Assembly: GCF_000328625.1 (NCBI RefSeq)
Contig: NC_019978.1
Span: forward strand, 496,001 to 560,000
Origin: Halobacteroides halobius DSM 5150
GTDB taxonomy: Bacteria > Bacillota > Halanaerobiia > Halobacteroidales > Halobacteroidaceae
DNA length: 64,000 nt
Direction of reading: 5' to 3'
This document shows, piece by piece, positions 8,841 through 55,159 of the stretch. The notes under the pieces are model-generated. The model was given only the letters and a program-made list of their open reading frames with translations. It ran no database searches and was not told where the DNA came from. The translations under genes were made by a program, and so were the position numbers. Numbering within the stretch: the first letter of the stretch is position 1; each line of letters opens with the position of its first letter.

Positions 8841-10682
8841 ATGGATTGTTGTGATATTAGTCATCAGGTTGATATACCAGCTGGTGCTAATAAGATAGTA
8901 TTAGCCGGGAATCCGAATGTAGGTAAGTCAATTTTCTTTAATTCATTTACAGGAGTTTATGTAGATGTATCAAATTATCCAGGAACAACTTTGGAGATTA
9001 GTTCAGGTAAGTATGGTGATGATGTTGTGTTAGATACACCGGGGGTTTATGGAGTATCTTCTTTTAATGATGAAGAAAGGTTAGCCCGGGATGTAATTGC
9101 CTCGGCTGATGTAGTTGTTAATATTGTAGATGCTGTTCATCTAGAACGAGATTTATTTTTAACCCAACAGATTATTGATATGGGTATTCCAGTAGTTGTA
9201 GCTCTAAATATGATGGATGAAGCCAAGAAGCAAGGTCTAGAGATTAATATTAATCAGTTAAGTGCAGAATTGGGAGTACCAGTAATTCCAACAGTAGCTC
9301 CTAAAGGTGAAGGATTAGATGAAGTAAAACAGGCAGTAAAAAGAGCTAAAGTTGGAAATAGTAGTTTAGGCTTTGAATCAGAATTAGCAGCAACTCGAGA
9401 GAAAGTAACTAACAGAAGAGAAGCTTTATTAGTGTTAGAAGGTGACCCTAATGTTGCTGCTAAAAATAGAGTAGAGCCATTAAATTATCAAGAAAAAATC
9501 TATAAGGAAAGAAGAAAACGGGTTAATGAATTAACAGAAGAAGTAGTTAGTCAAACAAGTGAAGGAAGTAGCTTTAAGACTAAATTAGGTCGAATGATGG
9601 TTAGGCCTTTAACAGGAGTTTCAATGTTAATAGCAGTTTTATATGCCTTATATCAGTTTGTAGGAGTTTTTATAGCTCAAACTGTAGTTGGAATTACAGA
9701 AGGACAGATTTTTGATGGAACGTACGAACCTTTTATTGAAGACTTAGTTGGTGGCTTGGTATCTCAGACATCCTTTATTGGCCAATTATTAATTGGAGAA
9801 TTTGGTGTATTGACTATGGCTGTTACATATACTTTTGGTTTACTACTGCCATTAGTTATCGGATTTTATTTATTTTTAGCTATACTAGAGGATTCAGGCT
9901 ATTTACCGCGAATTGCAGCTTTAGTTGATAGAGTATTAACTTCTTTAGGATTAAATGGTCGGGCTGTTATTCCAATGTTATTAGGTTTTGGTTGTGTGAC
10001 AATGGCAACAATAACTACTCGATTATTAGGTTCTAAGCGAGAAAGGATTATTGCTGTATTCTTATTAGGTTTAGCAATACCTTGCTCAGCCCAGTTAGGA
10101 GTTATTACTGGTTTGATTGCTCCATTAGGATTTAAATATTTTATGATTTATGTAGGAACTATTTTAGCTGTTTATGTACTAGCAGGAACTTTCTTAAATC
10201 GAGTTATGCCAGGCGAATCAACAGACTTATTAATTGATTTACCACCGCTTAGAATGCCTAAAATGAGTAATGTATTACAAAAGACATATATTAAGTCTAA
10301 ATCATTTATCAGAGAAGCAGGGCCAATCTTTGTGTTAGGATCAGTATTGATTACTATCATGCATTATTTTGGTTGGTTAACAGCTATTCAAAATACAGTA
10401 GCACCAATTACTGTTGGTTGGCTAGAATTACCTAAAGAAGCAGCGACAGCTTTCATTATGGGGATAGTAAGACGTGACTTTGGAGCAGCTGGTTTAAATG
10501 GTTTAAGTATGACTGCAGCTCAGACTACAATTTCTTTAATTACAATTACTTTATTTGTACCATGTAGTGCAGCAATGATGATTATGGTTAAAGAGCGAAG
10601 TTGGAAAGAATCTATAGCAATTTGGTTTGGTAGTTGGTTTACTGCCTTTATTGTAGGTGGTTTGGTAGCACAATTGATATAA
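8841..10682 (+). CDS. feoB: FeoB iron(II) transporter, copy 1
   Basis: GTP-driven Fe(II) importer of the inner membrane. 613 aa. It has a Cys-bearing N-terminus (MDCCDI), then a G domain with G1 GNPNVGKS, G2 in SNYPGTT, G3 DTPG and G4 NMMD, then a membrane domain with two Gate repeats (LLGFGCVTMATITTR and the later GIVRRDFGAAGL). It is shorter than E. coli FeoB (about 770 aa), lacking a long cytoplasmic tail. A near-identical copy lies at 11928. No feoC is seen. Confidence 0.95.
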   Translation: MDCCDISHQVDIPAGANKIVLAGNPNVGKSIFFNSFTGVYVDVSNYPGTTLEISSGKYGDDVVLDTPGVYGVSSFNDEERLARDVIASADVVVNIVDAVHLERDLFLTQQIIDMGIPVVVALNMMDEAKKQGLEININQLSAELGVPVIPTVAPKGEGLDEVKQAVKRAKVGNSSLGFESELAATREKVTNRREALLVLEGDPNVAAKNRVEPLNYQEKIYKERRKRVNELTEEVVSQTSEGSSFKTKLGRMMVRPLTGVSMLIAVLYALYQFVGVFIAQTVVGITEGQIFDGTYEPFIEDLVGGLVSQTSFIGQLLIGEFGVLTMAVTYTFGLLLPLVIGFYLFLAILEDSGYLPRIAALVDRVLTSLGLNGRAVIPMLLGFGCVTMATITTRLLGSKRERIIAVFLLGLAIPCSAQLGVITGLIAPLGFKYFMIYVGTILAVYVLAGTFLNRVMPGESTDLLIDLPPLRMPKMSNVLQKTYIKSKSFIREAGPIFVLGSVLITIMHYFGWLTAIQNTVAPITVGWLELPKEAATAFIMGIVRRDFGAAGLNGLSMTAAQTTISLITITLFVPCSAAMMIMVKERSWKESIAIWFGSWFTAFIVGGLVAQLI

Positions 10683-10770
10683 GTGTCAGTGGAGAAGTGA
10701 GTGGGAGTAGATTTAAAGCTGCTCGTAATCGTTTTGGTTACTATAAAGTCTATAAAAAGAGTGATTGATT

Positions 10771-11202
10771 ATGAAGATAAATCTTAAGAACTTAAAAACT
10801 ATATTGGCAGCAAATAATTATCAGTTGACTTTTCAGCGCAAGTTGATTTTACAATTATTTTTAAATACTAAAGAAAAACATCTTAGTGCAGAAGATATTT
10901 ATAATAGTATAAAAGATGAGCATCCGTCTATTGGGTTATCAACTATTTATCGTACTTTGGATACTTTTTTAAATTCAGGAATAATTAAAGAGTTAGACTT
11001 TGATACTAAATGTCGGTGTTATGAACTAAAAGATGAAGGAGTTTCTCATCATTATCATTTGATTTGTATTAAATGTAATAAGATAGTAGAAACTAATGGA
11101 AAGATGATAGATAGAATGAAGTTATGTGTAAAAAATAAATATAATTTTAAAGTATTAGATCATAAAATTAAAATTCATGGTTACTGTGAAGAATGTTCCT
11201 GA
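10771..11202 (+). CDS. Fur-family metal-responsive repressor
   Basis: 143 aa. The N-terminal winged helix contains QLTFQRKLIL and GLSTIYRTLD. The dimerisation domain has the HHYHLICIKC metal motif and a second Cys pair at the C-terminus (CEEC), giving a structural zinc site. It lies between the two feoAB pairs, next to several Fur boxes, so it is the obvious local regulator. PerR or Zur cannot be excluded without comparison. I chose the ATG at 10771; the TTG at 10765 would lie too close to GAGTGA. Confidence 0.9.
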   Translation: MKINLKNLKTILAANNYQLTFQRKLILQLFLNTKEKHLSAEDIYNSIKDEHPSIGLSTIYRTLDTFLNSGIIKELDFDTKCRCYELKDEGVSHHYHLICIKCNKIVETNGKMIDRMKLCVKNKYNFKVLDHKIKIHGYCEECS

Positions 11203-11927: not shown

Positions 11928-13769
11928 ATGGATTGTTGTGATATAAGTCATCAAATAGATATTCCAGCTGATGCTGATAAGATAGTCTTAGCCGGGAATC
12001 CAAATGTAGGTAAGTCAATTTTCTTTAGTTCTTTTACGGGGGTTTATGTTGATGTTTCAAATTACCCTGGTACAACGTTAGATATTAGTTCAGGTAAATA
12101 TGGGGATGATGTAGTATTAGATACACCAGGAGTTTATGGAGTATCTTCTTTTAATGATGAAGAACGAGTAGCGCGAGATGTAATTGCCTCGGCTGATGTA
12201 GTAGTTAATATTGTAGATGCTGTTCATCTAGAACGAGATTTATTTTTAACCCAACAGATTATTGATATGGGTATTCCAGTAGTTGTAGCTCTAAATATGA
12301 TGGATGAAGCTAAGAGACGAGGACTAGAGATTAATATTAATCAGTTAAGTGCAGAATTGGGAGTACCAGTAATTCCAACAGTAGCTCCTAAAGGTAAAGG
12401 ATTAGATGAAGTAAAAGAAGCAGTTAAAAGAGCTAAAGTTGGCAATAGTAGTTTAGAGTTAGAATCAGAATTAGCTGCTACTGAAGAGAAAGTAACTAAT
12501 AGAAGAGAAGCTTTATTGGTGTTAGAAGGTGATCCTAATGTTGCTGCCAAAAATAAAGTAGATCCTTTAGAGTATCAAGAAAGAATCTATAAAGACAGAA
12601 GAAAACGGGTTAATGAATTAACAGAAGAAGTAGTTAGTCAAACAAGTGAAGGAAGTAGCTTTAAGACTAAATTAGGTCGAATGATGGTTAGACCACTGAC
12701 TGGAGTACCTATGTTATTAGCTGTTCTATATGCTTTATATCAACTTGTAGGGGTTTTTATTGCTCAAACTGTAGTTGGTATTACAGAAGGAAAGATATTT
12801 GATGGAATGTATGAACCTTTTATTGAGAATGTCGTTGGTAATTTGGTTTCTCATACATCCTTTATTGGTCAATTATTAATTGGTGAGTTTGGTGTATTGA
12901 CTATGGCTGTTACATATACTTTTGGCTTATTACTTCCATTAGTTATAGGGTTTTATTTATTCTTATCTATACTAGAGGATTCAGGTTATTTACCACGGAT
13001 TGCCGCTTTAGTCGATCGTATGTTAACAGCTTTAGGGTTAAATGGTCGAGCTGTTATTCCTATGTTATTAGGTTTTGGTTGTGTAACGATGGCCACAATT
13101 ACTACCCGATTATTAGGTTCTAAGCGAGAGCGGATTATAGCTGTTTTCTTATTAGGTTTAGCAATACCTTGTTCAGCTCAGTTAGGAGTTATTGCTGGTT
13201 TAATTGCACCATTAGGATTTAAATATTTTATGATTTATGTCGGTACTATCTTGGCAGTTTATGTGTTGGCAGGTACTTTCTTAAATCGAGTTATGCCTGG
13301 AGAATCAACTGATTTATTAATTGATTTACCACCACTTAGAATACCAAAAATGAGTAATGTATTACAAAAGACATATATTAAGTCTAAATCATTTATTAAA
13401 GAAGCTGGGCCAATCTTTGTGTTAGGATCAGTAGTGATTACTATAATGCAGTATTTTGGGTGGTTAACAGCTATTCAAAATGCAGTAGCACCAATTACTG
13501 TTGGTTGGTTACAATTACCTAAAGAAGCAGCGACAGCTTTTATTATGGGGATAGTAAGACGTGACTTTGGAGCAGCTGGTTTAACTGGTTTAAGTATGAC
13601 AGCAGCTCAAACAACAGTTTCTTTAATTACAATTACTTTATTTGTACCATGTATTGCAGCAATGATGATTATGGTTAAAGAAAGAAATTGGAAAGAATCT
13701 ATAGCAATTTGGTTTGGTAGTTGGATTACAGCTTTTACTGTAGGTGGTATAGTAGCACAACTGATATAA
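11928..13769 (+). CDS. feoB: FeoB iron(II) transporter, copy 2
   Basis: 613 aa, the same length as copy 1 and nearly identical along its whole length. The G motifs GNPNVGKS, DTPG and NMMD and the Gate repeats are intact. Differences are mostly conservative, but the VPCSAAMM of copy 1 is VPCIAAMM here. Unlike copy 1, it is followed 15 bases later by a small zinc-ribbon gene. Long identical nucleotide stretches point to a recent tandem duplication or gene conversion. Confidence 0.95.
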   Translation: MDCCDISHQIDIPADADKIVLAGNPNVGKSIFFSSFTGVYVDVSNYPGTTLDISSGKYGDDVVLDTPGVYGVSSFNDEERVARDVIASADVVVNIVDAVHLERDLFLTQQIIDMGIPVVVALNMMDEAKRRGLEININQLSAELGVPVIPTVAPKGKGLDEVKEAVKRAKVGNSSLELESELAATEEKVTNRREALLVLEGDPNVAAKNKVDPLEYQERIYKDRRKRVNELTEEVVSQTSEGSSFKTKLGRMMVRPLTGVPMLLAVLYALYQLVGVFIAQTVVGITEGKIFDGMYEPFIENVVGNLVSHTSFIGQLLIGEFGVLTMAVTYTFGLLLPLVIGFYLFLSILEDSGYLPRIAALVDRMLTALGLNGRAVIPMLLGFGCVTMATITTRLLGSKRERIIAVFLLGLAIPCSAQLGVIAGLIAPLGFKYFMIYVGTILAVYVLAGTFLNRVMPGESTDLLIDLPPLRIPKMSNVLQKTYIKSKSFIKEAGPIFVLGSVVITIMQYFGWLTAIQNAVAPITVGWLQLPKEAATAFIMGIVRRDFGAAGLTGLSMTAAQTTVSLITITLFVPCIAAMMIMVKERNWKESIAIWFGSWITAFTVGGIVAQLI

Positions 13770-48052: not shown

Positions 48053-49255
48053 GTGGAGGATATTCTATCAGTTTCTCAGATAACGGCCTATATTAAAGAA
48101 AGACTGATCTCTGACTCTAACTTAAGAGAGGTAGTTATTAAAGGGGAAGTATCAAATTATTATCAACATAGCTCTTCTGGTCATATTTATTTTACCCTAA
48201 AGGATAAGCGGGCCAAGCTTAAAGCAGTTATGTTTAATGATAAGGTACAAAATTTAGATTTTGATTTAGAGGATGGTAGAGAAGTAGTCGCCCAGGGTAG
48301 AATTAGTCTTTATTCTCCTCAGGGCCAACATCAAATTCAAGTAAAAAGTCTTAAGCCAGCAGGAGTTGGAGCCTTACATATTGCTTTTAAGAGGTTGAAG
48401 GAGAAGTTGGCCCAGGAAGGATTATTTGCTGAAGAATATAAGCAGTCCATTCCTCAGATTCCAAAGCGAGTAGGAGTTGTTACTTCTCCTACTGGAGCAG
48501 CTTTTCGTGATATTATTAGTGTTATTAAACGAAGATTTTCTAATACTTCTTTATTGATTGCACCAGCTACAGTGCAAGGGAAAAGAGCAGAAAATAGTTT
48601 AATAAGGGCTTTGAGATTGTTACATAATTATGATTTAAATGTGATTATTATTGGGCGTGGGGGAGGATCTTTAGAAGATTTATGGGCTTTTAATAAAGAA
48701 GAATTAGCTAGAGTGATTTTCAATTCTAAAATACCTATTATTTCTGCTGTAGGTCATGAAACTGATTATACTATTTCAGATTATGTAGCTGATTTGCGAG
48801 CTCCTACTCCTTCAGCAGCTGCAGAGCTAGTAGTTGCAGATAGAAAAGAATTGCAACGCTATCTTAAAAGATTAGAGAATAATCTCTATCAAGCTATAGA
48901 CTATAAATTTCAAAAGGCTCAAGATAAGTTAAATTATTTAACTCAGCGTAGAGTTTTTGAGTTACCCCAGCAAGAGTGGCAGCAATTAGCTCAACAGTTA
49001 GATGAATTAAGTAAAAGATTAGACCAAGCAGTTAAAGAGAAATTAAAGACAAAGCAGAAAAATCTACAGACTATAATGGATCAATTGAATACTTTATCTC
49101 CATTACAGGTATTAGAACGTGGGTATAGTTTAACTAGAAAGAGTAGTGATAAAGCAGAAGTCAATTCTATTACGCAAGTACAGGAAGAAGAATTAGTAGA
49201 AGTAATTTTAAAAGATGGAAAGTTAGATTGTAAGGTACGAGAAATAAAAAAATAA
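48053..49255 (+). CDS. xseA: Exodeoxyribonuclease VII large subunit
   Basis: 400 aa, GTG start. N-terminal OB fold (VVIKGEVSNYYQHSSSGHIYF), nuclease core with GVVTSPTGAAFRDII, IIIGRGGGSLEDLWAFN, SAVGHETDYTISDYVADLRA and PTPSAAAELV, then a coiled coil. The small subunit xseB normally follows at once. Here it is 5.6 kb away at 54914, beyond inserted DNA. Confidence 0.95.
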   Translation: MEDILSVSQITAYIKERLISDSNLREVVIKGEVSNYYQHSSSGHIYFTLKDKRAKLKAVMFNDKVQNLDFDLEDGREVVAQGRISLYSPQGQHQIQVKSLKPAGVGALHIAFKRLKEKLAQEGLFAEEYKQSIPQIPKRVGVVTSPTGAAFRDIISVIKRRFSNTSLLIAPATVQGKRAENSLIRALRLLHNYDLNVIIIGRGGGSLEDLWAFNKEELARVIFNSKIPIISAVGHETDYTISDYVADLRAPTPSAAAELVVADRKELQRYLKRLENNLYQAIDYKFQKAQDKLNYLTQRRVFELPQQEWQQLAQQLDELSKRLDQAVKEKLKTKQKNLQTIMDQLNTLSPLQVLERGYSLTRKSSDKAEVNSITQVQEEELVEVILKDGKLDCKVREIKK

Positions 49256-49357: not shown

Positions 49358-49387
49358 TTGAAAGATTTAATGTTTTTTTAGTATAAT
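49358..49387 (+). promoter_or_regulatory. Probable promoter of the small HTH gene
   Basis: TTGAAA and TATAAT separated by 18 bases, 85 bases upstream of the start codon. Confidence 0.5.
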
Positions 49388-49471: not shown

Positions 49472-49660
49472 ATGGAAAAAGATAACTTAACAGTAAAGGA
49501 TGTGGCAAAGTACTTAAATCGCTCTGAGACAACTATCTATAATATGCTTAATAATGGTCAATTGCCAGGTATTAAATTAGGTGGTAAATGGATTGTAAGA
49601 AAGAAGGACCTAGATAAATTTTTAGATCAGAAGATGCAAGAGCAGATAGCGCAAAACTAA
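49472..49660 (+). CDS. Excisionase-like (MerR-type HTH) DNA-binding protein
   Basis: 62 aa. HTH of the excisionase/helix-turn-helix-17 type: LTVKDVAKYLNRSETTIYNMLNNGQLPGIKLGGKWIV... with the typical wing GGKW and a helical tail. AAGGAGGAG precedes the ATG. It sits alone between its own promoter and terminator, at the left end of the DNA separating xseA and xseB. No integrase is nearby, so a general regulator is as likely as an excisionase. Confidence 0.82.
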   Translation: MEKDNLTVKDVAKYLNRSETTIYNMLNNGQLPGIKLGGKWIVRKKDLDKFLDQKMQEQIAQN

Positions 49661-49699: not shown

Positions 49700-50574
49700 G
49701 TGTGCTCTGTAGTCTATGCTGATAGTAGGTGTAAGTCCTGCCTATTCTGGAAGAATGGATAATATGGTTGAGATATTGTGGCACTCACAGACGAAATGGG
49801 TGAGCAAACGGAGAAAACAAACGTCAACCTAAGTTAATAAAGAACAGGATATGAAGCCAACAGTAACAGGGTGTTCATCGTGAGATGTAATCTGAAGAGT
49901 TTGAGGCGAAAAATCAGTCCGGAACAATATGTGAACTGAAGGTGGCATTCATTAGTGACGATCTACCAAAAGGATGGAGAAGTCCAAAGCTGACTTACAG
50001 ACCATTGGAGTATGTTAGATTAATGAGTGTGATTATGGTCGGAATGATTGGAATATAGCATAGGTGACCAGAGGATGCTCTAATATGGTCTTTATAGAAA
50101 TCTATAAAGATAAGTGATGATATAACCTGAATAGGGAAAGTCAAAGCGATGAAATATTAGAGTTCAGAAGCTATCATAGTAGTGAAAAAAAATCAATGAA
50201 AGTTGATTACAGTGAAGGATAGCCAGGTTATTGAAGTTTAGAATTGAGTGTTGATGGTATTTAAATCAAAATGGTTTAAACATTGTTAAAGACAATAAGT
50301 CTTAAAAGAAATAGCGGACAGAAAATCATAACTGGAAGCGTGATGAATTTAAGAAAACCATGACCTAAGTAGTAGTAAACTAAGAGGTGCGATTGGCGAG
50401 AGCTTAGAAGACGTGCTTAGGAATGCTACGAATATAGGGGTTTAGATATTAAGACAGGATAGGAAGAACTGGTAAGTCGTGAGGTAGGATAGGTGAAAAA
50501 AAAATTAGTTCGCTATATAGTATAAAAGATTTAGTGACTAAGAAAGACATTTACATTGTGCAGCTCAGAAAGTT

Positions 50575-51654
50575 TTGAATAATGGTGGTTGTGGAGGGAT
50601 TGACGGTGTAGAAGTTGAAGAATTTAGAGAAAATTACACTAAGAATATGAGTGCTTTATATCGCCAGTTAACAGAAGATAGATATGAGCCACAACCAGTT
50701 CTAAGAACGTATATCTCAAAAGGAAATGGAGAACAAAGACCACTAGGTATTCCAGTAATTAAAGACCGAATTGCCCAACAAGCAGTGAAACAGATTCTAG
50801 AGATACACTTTGAAGAAATATTCTGCGACTGTTCTTATGGTTTTAGACCTAATAGGTCAACCGAAGATGCAATTAAGAAAGTAGAAGAATATAAAGAACA
50901 AGGTTATAATTGGGTATTAGACGCAGATGTCAAATCTTACTTTGATACAATAGATCATGAAATTTTAATGGAGCTGATAGCAGAGGAAGTAAGTGATGGT
51001 TGGGTATTAGATATTATTAGGTCGTGGCTTACTATAGGTGTCATGACTGAGCAAGGAAGAGAAGAAACAACGGAGGGAACTCCACAAGGAGGCGTAATTT
51101 CTCCACTTTTAGCAAATATCTACCTACATCATTTTGATAAGAAAATGAGGTGTCGAGGATATAAGATAGTTAGATTTGCCGATGACTTTATAATTATGGC
51201 TAAGAGTAAAGCTAAAGCAGAACGTGCTTTGGAAGTAACTCGCCAGATTATAGAAAATGAATTAAACTTAAGACTACATCCTCGGAAAACAGTAATTACG
51301 AATTTTAATGATGGATTTAAATTTCTAGAATTTAAATTTTATAATTGTGATTACAAAAAGCCAAAAGAGAGCTCTATTAAAAGTTTCAAGGACAAAGTAA
51401 GAAAGAAAACTAAAAGGAATAGGTCAATAGGAGTAGCTGTAATGATTGATGAGCTTAATTTAATTATTAGAGGTTGGGGTAATAGTTTTCTACTAGGAAA
51501 TGTTAAAGGACTATATAAAAGGTTAGATGGTTGGATAAGAATGAGATTACGTTGTTTTATAGAAGGAAAGAAGGCGAAAGGGCAGAATTATCGCCTTCCT
51601 AATAAAATATTAAGAGATTTAGGACTAGAATCACTGCTTACCGATGTGCTTTAG
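50575..51654 (+). CDS. Group II intron reverse transcriptase/maturase, probably N-terminally frameshifted
   Basis: 359 aa in the main frame. RT motifs: RPLGIPVIKDRIAQQAV, SYGFRPNRST, DADVKSYFDTIDH, GTPQGGVISPLLANIYL, and the catalytic RFADDFIIMAKS (F in place of the usual Y). The maturase X domain follows (LNLIIRGWGNSF, LDGWIRMRLRCFI). The expected N-terminal residues (SSLYSIKDLVTKKDIYIVQLRK) are encoded just upstream in another frame, open from 50483, and join at about 50572 only with a one-base shift. The protein may therefore be defective or start internally at the TTG. Confidence 0.8.
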   Translation: MNNGGCGGIDGVEVEEFRENYTKNMSALYRQLTEDRYEPQPVLRTYISKGNGEQRPLGIPVIKDRIAQQAVKQILEIHFEEIFCDCSYGFRPNRSTEDAIKKVEEYKEQGYNWVLDADVKSYFDTIDHEILMELIAEEVSDGWVLDIIRSWLTIGVMTEQGREETTEGTPQGGVISPLLANIYLHHFDKKMRCRGYKIVRFADDFIIMAKSKAKAERALEVTRQIIENELNLRLHPRKTVITNFNDGFKFLEFKFYNCDYKKPKESSIKSFKDKVRKKTKRNRSIGVAVMIDELNLIIRGWGNSFLLGNVKGLYKRLDGWIRMRLRCFIEGKKAKGQNYRLPNKILRDLGLESLLTDVL

Positions 51655-51729
51655 ACAAGAGTAAAATATACATTTGTGGCAACACAAAGACGATAACTTA
51701 CTCTCTGTTAAGGAGCAACAATGACCGAA

Positions 51730-51799
51730 AGCTGTATACGGGAGAACCGTACGTGCAGTTTGACAAGAGGTCCCAGCCGTGAGGCTGGTCCTACTTTAT
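51730..51799 (+). ncRNA. Group II intron domains V and VI
   Basis: Domain V (51730-51760): lower helix with the AGC triad at 51730-51732 pairing GTTT-side bases, a two-base CG bulge at 51752-51753, and an upper helix closed by GAGAA. Domain VI (51765-51799): stem with loop GTGA and an unpaired A at 51793, six bases before the proposed 3' splice site. Confidence 0.8.
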
Positions 51800-51847
51800 T
51801 AGTTATTTAATGGTTTGATATGTATTAAAATAAAATTATTTTATATA

Positions 51848-51876
51848 TTGACAAAAACTACCATACAAGTTATAAT
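51848..51876 (+). promoter_or_regulatory. Perfect-consensus promoter of the actin-like cassette
   Basis: TTGACA and TATAAT with exactly 17 bases between them, 45 bases before the winged-helix gene. This strong promoter is directly followed by a tetranucleotide repeat, which may hold an operator. Confidence 0.85.
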
Positions 51877-51904
51877 ATAGATAGATGAATGAATAGATGG
51901 ATCA
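51877..51904. repeat. Degenerate tetranucleotide repeat in the leader of the actin-like cassette
   Basis: Seven 4-base units in a row: ATAG ATAG ATGA ATGA ATAG ATGG ATCA. It covers the expected transcription start. ParM-type systems keep their centromere and operator as direct repeats at this place, so it is a candidate binding site; it is short, so chance remains possible. Confidence 0.4.
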
Positions 51905-51921
51905 GTTGGGGGGCGTGAATA

Positions 51922-52227
51922 ATGAATTTTTGTGAGGAGTGTTTAAAATTTGTAGAAGATAATCTATCTACCTCAGATCGGTTTATTTTAAAAGTAATTG
52001 AAGAGAATGAAGTAATGAATAAAGAAGATATTGTTGGAATGGTTAAAGTATTGGCTAAAAGAGAAAAGAATGAGATTGTAACTAGTAAATCAGGTATTAA
52101 CTCTATTCTAAACAAATTAGTGGGTGCTTTATTAATTAATGTCGATTCTGTTGGTCGACAAAAACTTTATTCTATTAATAATAATGGAGAACAAATTTTA
52201 AAAGGAGTGACTATGAATGAGAATTGA
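51922..52227 (+). CDS. Winged-helix-like DNA-binding protein of the actin-like cassette
   Basis: 101 aa. An N-terminal CEECLKFVEDN stretch is followed by a helical region and a winged-helix-like pattern (FILKVIEENEVMNKEDIVGMV, SGINSILNKLVGALLI, GRQKLYSINNNGEQIL). It could bind the leader repeat and act as repressor or centromere adaptor; TubR in TubZ systems is also winged-helix. GGGGGGCGTG precedes the ATG. Its end overlaps the actin-like gene by 11 bases. No named family recognised. Confidence 0.65.
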   Translation: MNFCEECLKFVEDNLSTSDRFILKVIEENEVMNKEDIVGMVKVLAKREKNEIVTSKSGINSILNKLVGALLINVDSVGRQKLYSINNNGEQILKGVTMNEN

Positions 52228-53425
52228 AACTGCTAATGTATTAGGAGTTGATTTAGGTTATGATTCAGTTAAGATTAAGACCAAAGATAAGGAGTTATTA
52301 TTTCCATCTTTAGCAGAAGAAGAGGAAAGAGGAGTTCTAGCAGATGCTTCTTTTGAAGTACTTAAAAGTAGAGATAATTTAGTTGAGGAATTCGACCCTG
52401 AAAAAATGATTATTCAAGTTCATGGGAACCCAAGTCGTGAAGACGAAAAATTTACTACATATAGAGTTGGGGATTATGTTTTAAATCAACGCTCTTCGTC
52501 TATAGCATATTCATTATCTGATGATAAATATGAAGAACCAGAAGAGTTTGCTAAATTATTGTCTGGTGTTTGTCTGTTATATCCTAAAGCTGATAAGGTA
52601 GTAATTAATAATTTGGTAACGGGGTTGCCAATTAAATATTATGAAAAACATAAGTCATCTTTTAAAAATAAACTAGAGAATAACTTTAAAGTACATTTTA
52701 AGAATATCAACAATGAATTCATACCTAAAAAAATAGAGGTTAGACAAGCAACTATAATTCCTCAAGGTTTAGCTTCTTATTATGATTTTATTATGAATAA
52801 AGAAGGAGTAGTAACAACTAATATGGAAGGTGGATTAGGAGTTGTTGATTTAGGAGGATTAACAATTGATTGTGTTGCTTTTAATAATGGGGAATTAATT
52901 AAAGGCTCTCCAATTTCTTTTAATGAAGGGGTACGTAAGAGAATATTTAAACGAATTCAAGATTCTTTAGAGATTGATGTATCACAAGATATTATCAAAA
53001 GACAAATTTTAAAAGAAGAAGATAAGATTAAAGTTAGAAATGAAGTATACGACTTTTCAGATATAAAGGAGTACGCCATTGATAGATTAGCTAGAGATAT
53101 TGCATTACAAATAAAAAATCGTTGGGAGTCTTATTTAATGATTGATAAGATTTTAATTACAGGTGGGGCATCATTATTATTATTTGATAAAATAAATGAA
53201 TATCTAGCTGGATTCCCTTGTGAGCAAATTCATAACAACCCTCAGTTTAGCAATTGCCGAGGTTATATAAAGTTAGGATTTGCTTTGCATAAAAAGAATG
53301 AGAATACTGAAACATTAGCAACCTCATCTGAAGATAAAAATAATAAAGATGAAGCTAAGAGGACAGATGATGAACAGCCATATGATTCTTCTCAGGATGA
53401 AGTAGCAGTTACTATCGAAGAATAG
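52217..53425 (+). CDS. ParM-type actin-like ATPase
   Basis: 402 aa. Actin-fold motifs: phosphate-1 VLGVDLGYDSVKIKTK, phosphate-2 LGVVDLGGLTIDCVAF, and the adenosine loop KILITGGASLLLF. The region KVVINNLVTGLPIKYY is typical of ParM/Alp proteins. After the fold there is a charged tail of about 45 residues ending QPYDSSQDEVAVTIEE, not usual for ParM. Plasmid ParM proteins push DNA apart as filaments; here the gene is on what looks like the chromosome, between xseA and xseB. Its cargo is unknown. Confidence 0.85.
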   Translation: MRIETANVLGVDLGYDSVKIKTKDKELLFPSLAEEEERGVLADASFEVLKSRDNLVEEFDPEKMIIQVHGNPSREDEKFTTYRVGDYVLNQRSSSIAYSLSDDKYEEPEEFAKLLSGVCLLYPKADKVVINNLVTGLPIKYYEKHKSSFKNKLENNFKVHFKNINNEFIPKKIEVRQATIIPQGLASYYDFIMNKEGVVTTNMEGGLGVVDLGGLTIDCVAFNNGELIKGSPISFNEGVRKRIFKRIQDSLEIDVSQDIIKRQILKEEDKIKVRNEVYDFSDIKEYAIDRLARDIALQIKNRWESYLMIDKILITGGASLLLFDKINEYLAGFPCEQIHNNPQFSNCRGYIKLGFALHKKNENTETLATSSEDKNNKDEAKRTDDEQPYDSSQDEVAVTIEE

Positions 53426-53431
53426 TGGGTG

Positions 53432-53797
53432 ATGATTTTGGTGCAAATCCGAGATGATTCATTTTTAAGTATCCAGATAACAGAAGAAGAATTTGATTCT
53501 GAAGAAATTGATTTAATAAAAGAGGAATTAAAATCATGTAGTAAAACCGATTTGATTATTGCAGCACTTAAAAGTTATCTTAAGCAAGAAGAAGTAGCAA
53601 AAAAAGAGGATCAAGAACCAGGCGTAACAGATAAGTTAGAAGAACTAAAGCTGTTAGTAGAAGAGAATCACTCTTTGTTACAAGAGTTAAATAAAAATAA
53701 AGTTTCCTATGCTTCTACCAGTAGTAAAGATACCTATAATGACAAAAAGCAACAAGCTAAGACTGAACAAGCTCTTAATCTTTTAAACCAATTTTGA
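53432..53797 (+). CDS. Small partner protein of the actin-like ATPase
   Basis: 121 aa from the ATG at 53432 (GTG at 53429 is also open). The N-terminus has a beta-strand plus helix pattern (DSFLSIQITEEEFDSEEIDLIKEEL) and KTDLIIAALKSYLKQEE, reminiscent of ribbon-helix-helix adaptors. A coiled coil follows (KLEELKLLVEENHSLLQELN) and a Gln/Lys-rich tail ending ALNLLNQF. Position matches ParR behind ParM, and a hydrophobic C-terminal tail is how ParR binds ParM. Assignment by context and shape. Confidence 0.55.
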   Translation: MILVQIRDDSFLSIQITEEEFDSEEIDLIKEELKSCSKTDLIIAALKSYLKQEEVAKKEDQEPGVTDKLEELKLLVEENHSLLQELNKNKVSYASTSSKDTYNDKKQQAKTEQALNLLNQF

Positions 53798-53830
53798 CTC
53801 TGCCAAAATATTTTGGCAGAGTCTTTTGGT
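53796..53830. terminator. Convergent-gene terminator, perfect 14-bp palindrome
   Basis: GACTCTGCCAAAAT/ATTTTGGCAGAGTC, a 28-base perfect inverted repeat between convergent genes, starting at the last bases of the partner gene. A T-rich tail (TTTTGGTT) is seen only in the forward direction. Confidence 0.75.
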
Positions 53831-54351
53831 TATTCATTCGTTTCATCTTGAGATTCATCATAAGGTTCTGATTTAACTGGTTCATTAGTCTGGTTAGTTG
53901 TAGATTCACTATCGTTTGATTGGTTATTACTTTTCATTTGATTGAATAAATTCATTAATTTAATAAGTAGTGTAGGGTCTAGTTTGTTTTCACTATTATT
54001 ACCAGAATTTAAAAGGTTTAAAATATTATTAAGTGGTGAATCTGCTTGGTTATTGTTTGGAGTATTTTGGTTGTTATTACTTAGAGAATCAACTAGTTGT
54101 TGGATTTGTGGTGCAGAATTATTGTTGTTATTGGGGTTAAGGTTATTTAAATTAGCATTATTGACTAAACCAGATAAGTTAGTGTTATTTTGGTCTTGGG
54201 AGATACTGACGATATTGAGTAGGTTTAATAATCCTAGGATACTGATTACCTTGTTTGGTTCTAATTGTTCCTGTGATTGAATATTAAGGATACTTAATAA
54301 TTTATCAACCGTTTGAGCTTCTGGAAAGAAAAGATAGTCATCTTGATACAC
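53830..54351 (-). CDS. Asn/Gln-rich low-complexity protein with PYDxSQDE tail
   Basis: 173 aa on the minus strand, GTG start after AGGAGGGG. The first 60 residues form an ordered helical part (YLFFPEAQTVDKLLSILNIQ, KVISILGLLNLLNIV). The middle is very rich in Asn and Gln (NLNNLNPNNNNNS, NNNQNTPNNNQ), with helical blocks between (LVDSLSN, LLIKLMNLFNQMK). The C-terminus is EPYDESQDETNE, sharing PYD-x-SQDE with the tail of the actin-like protein encoded convergently. No family recognised; likely a disordered or scaffold-forming protein. Confidence 0.75.
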   Translation of the reverse strand: MYQDDYLFFPEAQTVDKLLSILNIQSQEQLEPNKVISILGLLNLLNIVSISQDQNNTNLSGLVNNANLNNLNPNNNNNSAPQIQQLVDSLSNNNQNTPNNNQADSPLNNILNLLNSGNNSENKLDPTLLIKLMNLFNQMKSNNQSNDSESTTNQTNEPVKSEPYDESQDETNE

Positions 54352-54460
54352 GATATTTCCCCTCCTTTGTTATAAATATATTAATAGTATTTTTAAAAAT
54401 CACATTTTTTTCATTTTTTCATAAAATATAATGTAATTAAGTTTAAGGAGGAGGAATAAA

Positions 54461-54736
54461 ATGCCAAATGATAACTTTGAATTAATACAAGGCGATTCAA
54501 ATAATCAAGCAGATACAGCTGATCAATCAAATCAAAACCAAGGCTTTTTAGATAATGATTTACTTTTAACATTAATTATTTTATTTATATTTTTTCAAAG
54601 AAATGATGCTTTTGCGCAAAATGTTGATCTTTTAAATCAACAAGTAAAGCAAGTTAAAACTTATTTGGATACCGCCGACTCTACTCTACAAGCATTAAAT
54701 CAAGCTAGTCAAATTCCTAATCAACAATTAGAATAA
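54461..54736 (+). CDS. Small single-pass membrane protein, Asn/Gln-rich
   Basis: 91 aa. A polar N-terminus (DSNNQADTADQSNQNQ) is followed by a hydrophobic segment (DNDLLLTLIILFIFFQRND) and a C-terminal helix (DLLNQQVKQVKTYLDTADSTLQAL). AAGGAGGAGG precedes the ATG. It diverges from the Asn-rich gene and shares its N/Q-rich composition, so it may be part of the same system, for example as a membrane anchor. No family recognised. Confidence 0.7.
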   Translation: MPNDNFELIQGDSNNQADTADQSNQNQGFLDNDLLLTLIILFIFFQRNDAFAQNVDLLNQQVKQVKTYLDTADSTLQALNQASQIPNQQLE

Positions 54737-54742
54737 TTGTCT

Positions 54743-54775: not shown

Positions 54776-54913
54776 TAGAGTTATGAAATAAATTTATTTT
54801 ATGATATAATTATATAAGTCCAAATTAAGGATACAATACATAAGTATAGAGTGTTAATGAAGGGAATAGAAAGTTCAATCTAGAATAGATATATTGGGTA
54901 AGGAGTGGATATT

Positions 54914-55159
54914 ATGACTGAAGAATTATCTTTTGAAGGAGCTATAGATAAACTAGAAAGAACTGTTGATAAGTTAGAGAGTGGAAATTTATCTTTAGCA
55001 GAATCTTTATCAGAATTTGAAACTGGTGTTAAACTAGTTAGATTTTGTTCGAGTAAATTGGAAGATGCAGAAGAGAAAATTGAAATTATTAAACAGGATG
55101 CTAAAGGGATTAAAATTAAGCCCTACAAGTTAGAAAGAGAGGATAAAGATGAAAGTTAA
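54914..55159 (+). CDS. xseB: Exodeoxyribonuclease VII small subunit
   Basis: 81 aa from the ATG at 54914 (AAGGAG 8 bases upstream; a GTG at 54905 lies in that site). The family pattern LSFEGAIDKLERTVDKLESGNLSLAESLSEFETGV is intact. It overlaps ispA by 11 bases. Its partner xseA is 5.6 kb upstream, an unusual separation, so it must have its own promoter or rely on read-through. Confidence 0.94.
   Translation: MTEELSFEGAIDKLERTVDKLESGNLSLAESLSEFETGVKLVRFCSSKLEDAEEKIEIIKQDAKGIKIKPYKLEREDKDES

Follow-up and report, generated by a model that had tools for sequence, protein, structure and literature searches.

A conserved ParM-type cassette of the Halobacteroidaceae suggests a segregation system tied to making spores

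A 64,000-base stretch of the genome of Halobacteroides halobius DSM 5150 (positions 496001-560000 of the single 2,649,255-base contig, G000:C1; hereafter the window, within which all positions are given) carries a cassette of small genes around a ParM-type actin ATPase between xseA (48053-49255) and xseB (54905-55159). An earlier interpretation made from the sequence alone (the sequence-only reading) had described a chromosomal ParM-type actin among core genes at this site, accompanied by a winged-helix protein, a small coiled-coil partner, a convergent Asn/Gln-rich protein and an adjoining one-transmembrane protein; the location of the actin was confirmed, and the last two genes exist as described. 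Using tblastn and open reading frame (ORF) maps of seven sister loci, we found that the gene order in the family is HTH62, a slot gene where present, ParM, a ParR-like protein, the convergent Asn/Gln-rich protein (AsnR) and the one-transmembrane protein (TM). The cassette is present once in each of eight genomes of the Halobacteroidaceae and, since it recurs in all eight, is not the product of chance. We conclude that the conserved unit consists of HTH62, ParM, a ParR-like ribbon-helix-helix (RHH) protein, AsnR and TM, and that the winged-helix gene lies outside it. In total, our observations suggest that the cassette is a segregation system tied to making spores.

The ParM gene (52217-53425, plus strand) was assigned by profile and sequence matches and by orthologues in 7/7 other family genomes. 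Its product matches the profiles ALP_N (3e-19), MreB-like_C (8e-10) and phrog_691 'partition protein' (5e-48) and, among ParMs in the PDB, the pCBH-type ParM (6e-14) and the ParM of 3js6 (9e-12), all of which support the earlier call of a ParM-like ATPase. The phosphate motifs VDLGYDS, DLGGLTID and ITGGA are kept in all eight family genomes, and ParM is an open frame in each of them. A search of the order returned orthologues at 68-72% identity in the seven other family genomes and just remote ParMs in the sister family, while no relative of the window ParM was retrieved, at the thresholds used, from IMG/VR or from collections of plasmid and phage records. The AlphaFold2 (AF2) model built from eight sequences, in which the closed beta-barrel subdomain of ParM was sought, is of low confidence, with a predicted local distance difference test (pLDDT) value of 53. 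Judged by its sequence, the window ParM is a sound member of the ParM type. Neither homologues confined to plasmids and devoid of linked Asn-rich and one-transmembrane genes nor loss of the actin motifs in relatives was found. The window genome also encodes a second chromosomal ParM (L002, G000:C1:36261-40295), which is 33% identical to the first, has its own 123-aa ParR-like partner and adjoins an iron-type alcohol dehydrogenase; second ParMs similar to this copy are present in sister genomes.

Downstream of ParM lies the gene for a 122-aa protein (53429-53797, plus strand), for which the sequence-only reading had recognised the gene and the coil and missed the likeness to ParR. In the family alignment, this protein contains the segment SVRIT...KSEFxRKAIKxYL, a coiled coil and a constant C-terminal helix, KTEQxLNLLNQF; moreover, a sister protein matches RHH_1 at 7e-4, slightly short of the cut-off. 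The AF2 model (pLDDT 66, low confidence) has a strand at residues 14-18, helices at 24-36 and 39-60, a coil at 66-89 and a helix at 105-121, and a Foldseek search with this model gave no meaningful match. Because the order of strand, two helices, coil and C-terminal helix accompanies an RHH_1 match of the sister protein, the partner is ParR-like. On sequence and model, the coiled-coil partner is thus the putative ParR equivalent, and binding to DNA and to ParM is predicted.

The first conserved gene of the cassette, HTH62 (49472-49660, plus strand), encodes a 62-aa HTH_17/excisionase-like predicted DNA-binding protein (Pfam HTH_17, 8e-18), is 78-84% identical across the seven sister cassettes and was missed by the sequence-only reading, beyond whose coordinates it lies. 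AsnR (53830-54351, minus strand) has a conserved N terminus, an LDPTLLxKLMNL motif and a PxKSEP tail in an alignment of seven sequences, in which identity to the window copy is 52-63%. It is single-copy and confined to the cassette locus in each of the eight genomes, the copy of Orenia G011 being split by a masked stretch. TM (54461-54736, plus strand), which has a conserved C-terminal helix and was placed in a sporulation-associated family by alignment, hhalign and the co-occurrence described below, is likewise single-copy in each family genome and always at the cassette locus. AsnR and TM lack a matching Pfam or NCBIfam model and, as the sequence-only reading had held, are part of no described ParM system that we found. 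A terminator-like hairpin (53797-53822, no strand assigned) was recognised by sequence between the two convergent modules. In the window genome only, the convergent ParM and AsnR genes share a near-identical short acidic motif close to their ends (...EQPYDSSQDE... at 53370-53405 and ...SEPYDESQDE... at 53840-53875 of the minus strand, respectively).

HTH62 and ParM have sigma-A-type promoters, whereas TM has a sigma-K-type promoter. HTH62 is preceded by TTGAAA-18-TATAAT (49358-49387, plus strand), and a sigma-A-type promoter lies 5' of this gene in 7/8 cassettes. The operon of the winged-helix, ParM and ParR-like genes is preceded by TTGACA (51848-51853) and TATAAT (51871-51876) with a 17-bp spacer (51848-51876, plus strand), exactly as previously reported; by contrast, the repeat-bearing leader described at the same place was not borne out, as a repeat search detected no significant repeat family in the leader 5' of the window cassette. 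An equivalent promoter precedes ParM in six other cassettes, and in Halanaerobacter ParM starts 37 bases after HTH62 without a clear promoter of its own. TM is preceded by AC-N16-CATAAAATA (54402-54428, plus strand), identified by motif comparison. We defined the sigma-K-type motif by a -35 AC, a spacing of 16-17 bp and a -10 of the CATANNNTA type with A or G at its second position; the sigma-K consensus in C. difficile has a -35 AC and a CATA-type -10 (PMC3789822). The motif AC-N16/17-C(A/G)TANNNTA lies 5' of 18/20 TM genes compared with 6/224 control ORFs, and the remaining two TM genes, both from Orenia, are one base off. A stricter version that includes GTAAC has four matches in the window genome, one of them 5' of a YmaF-family gene; a YmaF-like gene belongs to the C. 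difficile sigma-K regulon (PMC3789822). Thus, its promoters divide the cassette into a vegetative-looking half and a half that resembles late-sporulation genes. Elsewhere in the same genome, tandem proteins of ~94 aa (LLESIALEETALAHFMNAEAEK) without a Pfam match are encoded behind a sigma-K-type promoter (L066, 1500 onward) and are possibly spore proteins.

The TM profile reaches other families of the class, and hhalign with these distant relatives gave a probability of 97.5 and an E value of 5.6e-12. The distant TM relatives adjoin genes for small acid-soluble spore proteins (SASP) and cotJ (L057, L060) or ksgA, veg and yabG (L058, L059), SASP and YabG being named by profile and cotJ, veg and ksgA by eye from the sequence. 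In three other families, an Asn-rich protein is encoded divergently to TM, in the same arrangement as in the window and without ParM, and the Asn-rich neighbours in L059 and L088 carry the sigma-K-type motif. Among 59 genomes of the class, TM is present in 19/28 with SASP and in 0/31 without (Fisher 5e-9, phylogeny ignored); SASP presence is phylogenetically clumped across the class, and genomes of the sister family f2 encode SASP but not TM. In family f7, G042 is both the sole SASP-bearing and the sole TM-bearing genome among 14. Judged from these contexts, TM and AsnR resemble separately promoted sporulation genes, instead of speaking for the membrane or scaffold role of the filament that the sequence-only reading had considered possible. 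Beside TM relatives we also observed runs of very short one-transmembrane proteins of the FLILILLLLG type (L056, 7291-8117; L098, minus orientation, 9468-10645), some with the same sigma-K-type motif; these small membrane proteins are probably sporulation-linked. Moreover, in L099 (G042:C4:76000-93000) the TM gene is followed downstream by replication genes of phage-like type, an arrangement suggestive of a prophage insertion next to the sporulation pair.

The family members other than Halobacteroides belong to Halanaerobacter, Natroniella, Halonatronum and Orenia, the last name being used also for G010 and G011, which share genus g5 with Orenia metallireducens (G012). The cassette is chromosomal in half of the eight genomes. 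ParM, its partner, AsnR and TM occur together in all of them, as expected from the sequence-only reading; by contrast, they do not occupy one common site, the location differing between genera. In Natroniella, the cassette lies near rlmH at the same chromosomal site in two species; in Halanaerobacter, it lies between unrelated chromosomal genes; and in the window, it lies on the chromosome away from replication genes. In O. metallireducens, it fills a 7,629-base contig together with a Rep3 initiator (Rep3_N/Rep3_C), with 21-bp iterons at both ends. The 6,990-base contig of Orenia G011 breaks inside the ParR gene, which is split over the contig ends; therefore, this contig is probably a circle short of ~94 bases. 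The Halonatronum cassette shares a 31.7-kb contig with genes for Rep3 and recombinases; the 107-kb contig that bears the cassette in Orenia G010 also has a second ParM, recombinase genes and ParA-like genes.

xseA, xseB and ispA are contiguous without the cassette in three relatives, both Natroniella species and Halanaerobacter, and thus the simplest account is that the window site became occupied within the Halobacteroides lineage. When a target-site duplication was sought at the window junctions, just one 10-bp AT-rich repeat was found. Within the family, identity is lower for XseA (55-61%) than for ParM (64-69%). In the Natroniella chromosome pair, the ratio of nonsynonymous to synonymous substitution rates (dN/dS; Nei-Gojobori, dS 0.6-1.2) is 0.05 for ParM, 0.20 for ParR, 0.09 for AsnR, 0.11 for TM and 0.04 for HTH62; for the window itself, dS is saturated. 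ParM has an equal value of 0.05 in the Orenia plasmid pair (G011, G012). From the Natroniella values we conclude that this genus makes use of its chromosomal copies and, from the strong purifying selection on chromosomal ParM, that they are no decaying remnant. Thus, of the remnant of an integrated plasmid considered in the sequence-only reading, the plasmid part holds, with close relatives on rep-bearing plasmids, and the decay does not.

The slot between HTH62 and ParM varies in content: Orenia and Halonatronum have a DUF6788-like gene there, and Natroniella and Halanaerobacter have none. In the window it is occupied by the gene for the winged-helix-like 101-aa protein (51922-52227, plus strand), which overlaps the ParM gene by 11 bases and, based on its ORF and a comparison with the seven sister cassettes, is specific to the window; without a counterpart in any sister cassette, it was rejected as a conserved cassette part. 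Of the five genes listed in the sequence-only reading, the other four stand. A group II intron (approximate ends 49700-51800, plus strand; maturase 50575-51654), recognised by Rfam, RVT_1 and GIIM matches, separates HTH62 from the rest of the cassette in the window copy only. The Rfam matches are group-II-D1D4-3 at 49874-50045 and Intron_gpII at 51727-51799. This intron is no functional part of the cassette. Elsewhere in the window, two feoB genes, each encoding 613 aa (8841-10682 and 11928-13769), flank a fur gene (10765-11202), in what looks like a duplication.

The reading that we favour, to which we give somewhat better than even chances, is that a ParMR segregation module was joined in the ancestor of the Halobacteroidaceae to a mother-cell sporulation pair. 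The first module, comprising HTH62, the slot gene, ParM and ParR under sigma-A promoters, would be a ParMR-type segregation system in which a ParR dimer binds a centromere through its RHH domain and, with its C-terminal helix, grips one end of a ParM filament that is driven by ATP, so that the attached DNA is moved as ParM polymerises. In Orenia, this module would partition the small rep/iteron plasmids; the set would have entered the chromosomes of Halobacteroides, Natroniella and Halanaerobacter at unrelated sites, where it may still act on host DNA or on co-resident plasmids. The second module, AsnR and TM, divergent from each other and with AsnR convergent to the first module, would be a mother-cell sporulation pair, in which TM would be membrane-embedded, the outer forespore or coat-side membrane being its most likely location, and AsnR may serve as a low-complexity envelope or coat component. 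Joining the two would tie inheritance of the element to normal spore formation, making the element worth keeping.

Several observations weigh against this proposal. The window ParR-like protein has drifted from the family consensus in the strand and the second helix and has lost conserved RHH residues (SVRIT to SIQIT and KSEFxR to KTDLII), and neither exact 8-mers nor a repeat search revealed parC-like iterated repeats in any of the eight cassettes; the absence of parC is weak evidence because other ParM loci, searched in the identical way as controls, likewise yielded none. AsnR lacks a sigma-K-type motif upstream in 8/8 cassettes, and comparison with the distant Asn-rich neighbours of TM indicates weak homology (probability 19), the best score being 3e-5 for a G060 protein. 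ParM has no sporulation promoter, and the 16 upstream regions of ParM and HTH62 contain one stray sigma-K-type match. Finally, other plasmid-like contigs bearing the cassette also carry a second ParM, and the cassette is therefore not their only partition system.

An alternative that we regard as unlikely is a single integrated machine, in which ParM filaments would act in sporulation with TM as membrane anchor, ParR as linker and AsnR, for example in positioning DNA or the forespore. We similarly doubt that a plasmid-type actin was domesticated into the sporulation of the family, so that ParM and ParR together with AsnR and TM would make or load the spore irrespective of whether a 7-kb plasmid or the chromosome encodes them. 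The linkage conserved across plasmid and chromosome, the selection on chromosomal ParM and the resemblance of the window ParM tail QPYDSSQDE to the AsnR tail EPYDESQDE would fit one machine; however, the modules have a separate terminator and differing promoter classes, AsnR/TM-type pairs occur without ParM in other families, and the likeness of the tails is absent from sister genomes. Slightly less probable still is that the ParMR genes are a plain integrated plasmid backbone, a passenger on its way out with AsnR and TM as the selected cargo. Relatives on rep-bearing plasmids, an xseA-xseB site empty in relatives, and the diverged ParR and group II intron of the window copy are consistent with this, but the low dN/dS of ParM and HTH62 on the Natroniella chromosomes and the open ParM frame in every genome argue against it. 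That TM and AsnR are plasmid-type accessory proteins, with the shared promoter serving another sigma factor, is improbable given the spore-gene neighbours of TM in several families, the promoter enrichment at TM genes and the coincidence of SASP and TM in G042, even though the sigma assignment rests on consensus only, SASP is phylogenetically clumped and f2 genomes have SASP without TM.

Chromosomal ParMR systems were reported in 2025 without a known role, and the reason for the presence of functional ParM systems on chromosomes is an open question (PMC12270681). In the Halobacteroidaceae, one ParM system, chromosomal or plasmid-borne, is kept throughout the family, and the genes that always accompany it direct attention to a concrete and testable context, sporulation. 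Moreover, the analysis exposes a previously unnamed sporulation-associated gene pair, and tiny plasmids carry the only detected copy of this pair in their host.

Like the chromosomal cassettes Dh-cParMR-1 of Desulfitobacterium hafniense and Cb-cParCMR of Clostridium botulinum, which that report describes (PMC12270681), the cassette combines a ParM-type actin with a small RHH ParR and is conserved among relatives; moreover, Dh-cParM1 is a direct sequence match to the window ParM. Unlike those systems, as far as the part consulted describes them, the cassette has a linked sporulation pair and relatives on rep-bearing plasmids, and parC was not found. As in the plasmid ParMRC systems of Firmicutes (pCBH ParM, pSK41 ParM), ParR lies downstream of ParM; unlike in these systems, parC iterons were not found, HTH62, AsnR and TM are added, and half of the genomes have the cassette on the chromosome. 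The literature searched contained no ParMR system joined to a sporulation pair. TM resembles small sporulation membrane proteins and sigma-K-regulon genes in its short one-transmembrane form, its sigma-K-type promoter and the SASP and coat gene neighbours in related families, and differs from them in that TM and AsnR are joined to a segregation module and belong to no Pfam or NCBIfam family. In total, chromosomal ParMR systems are already known, the cassette is a new family of that kind, and its pairing of ParMR with sporulation is new.

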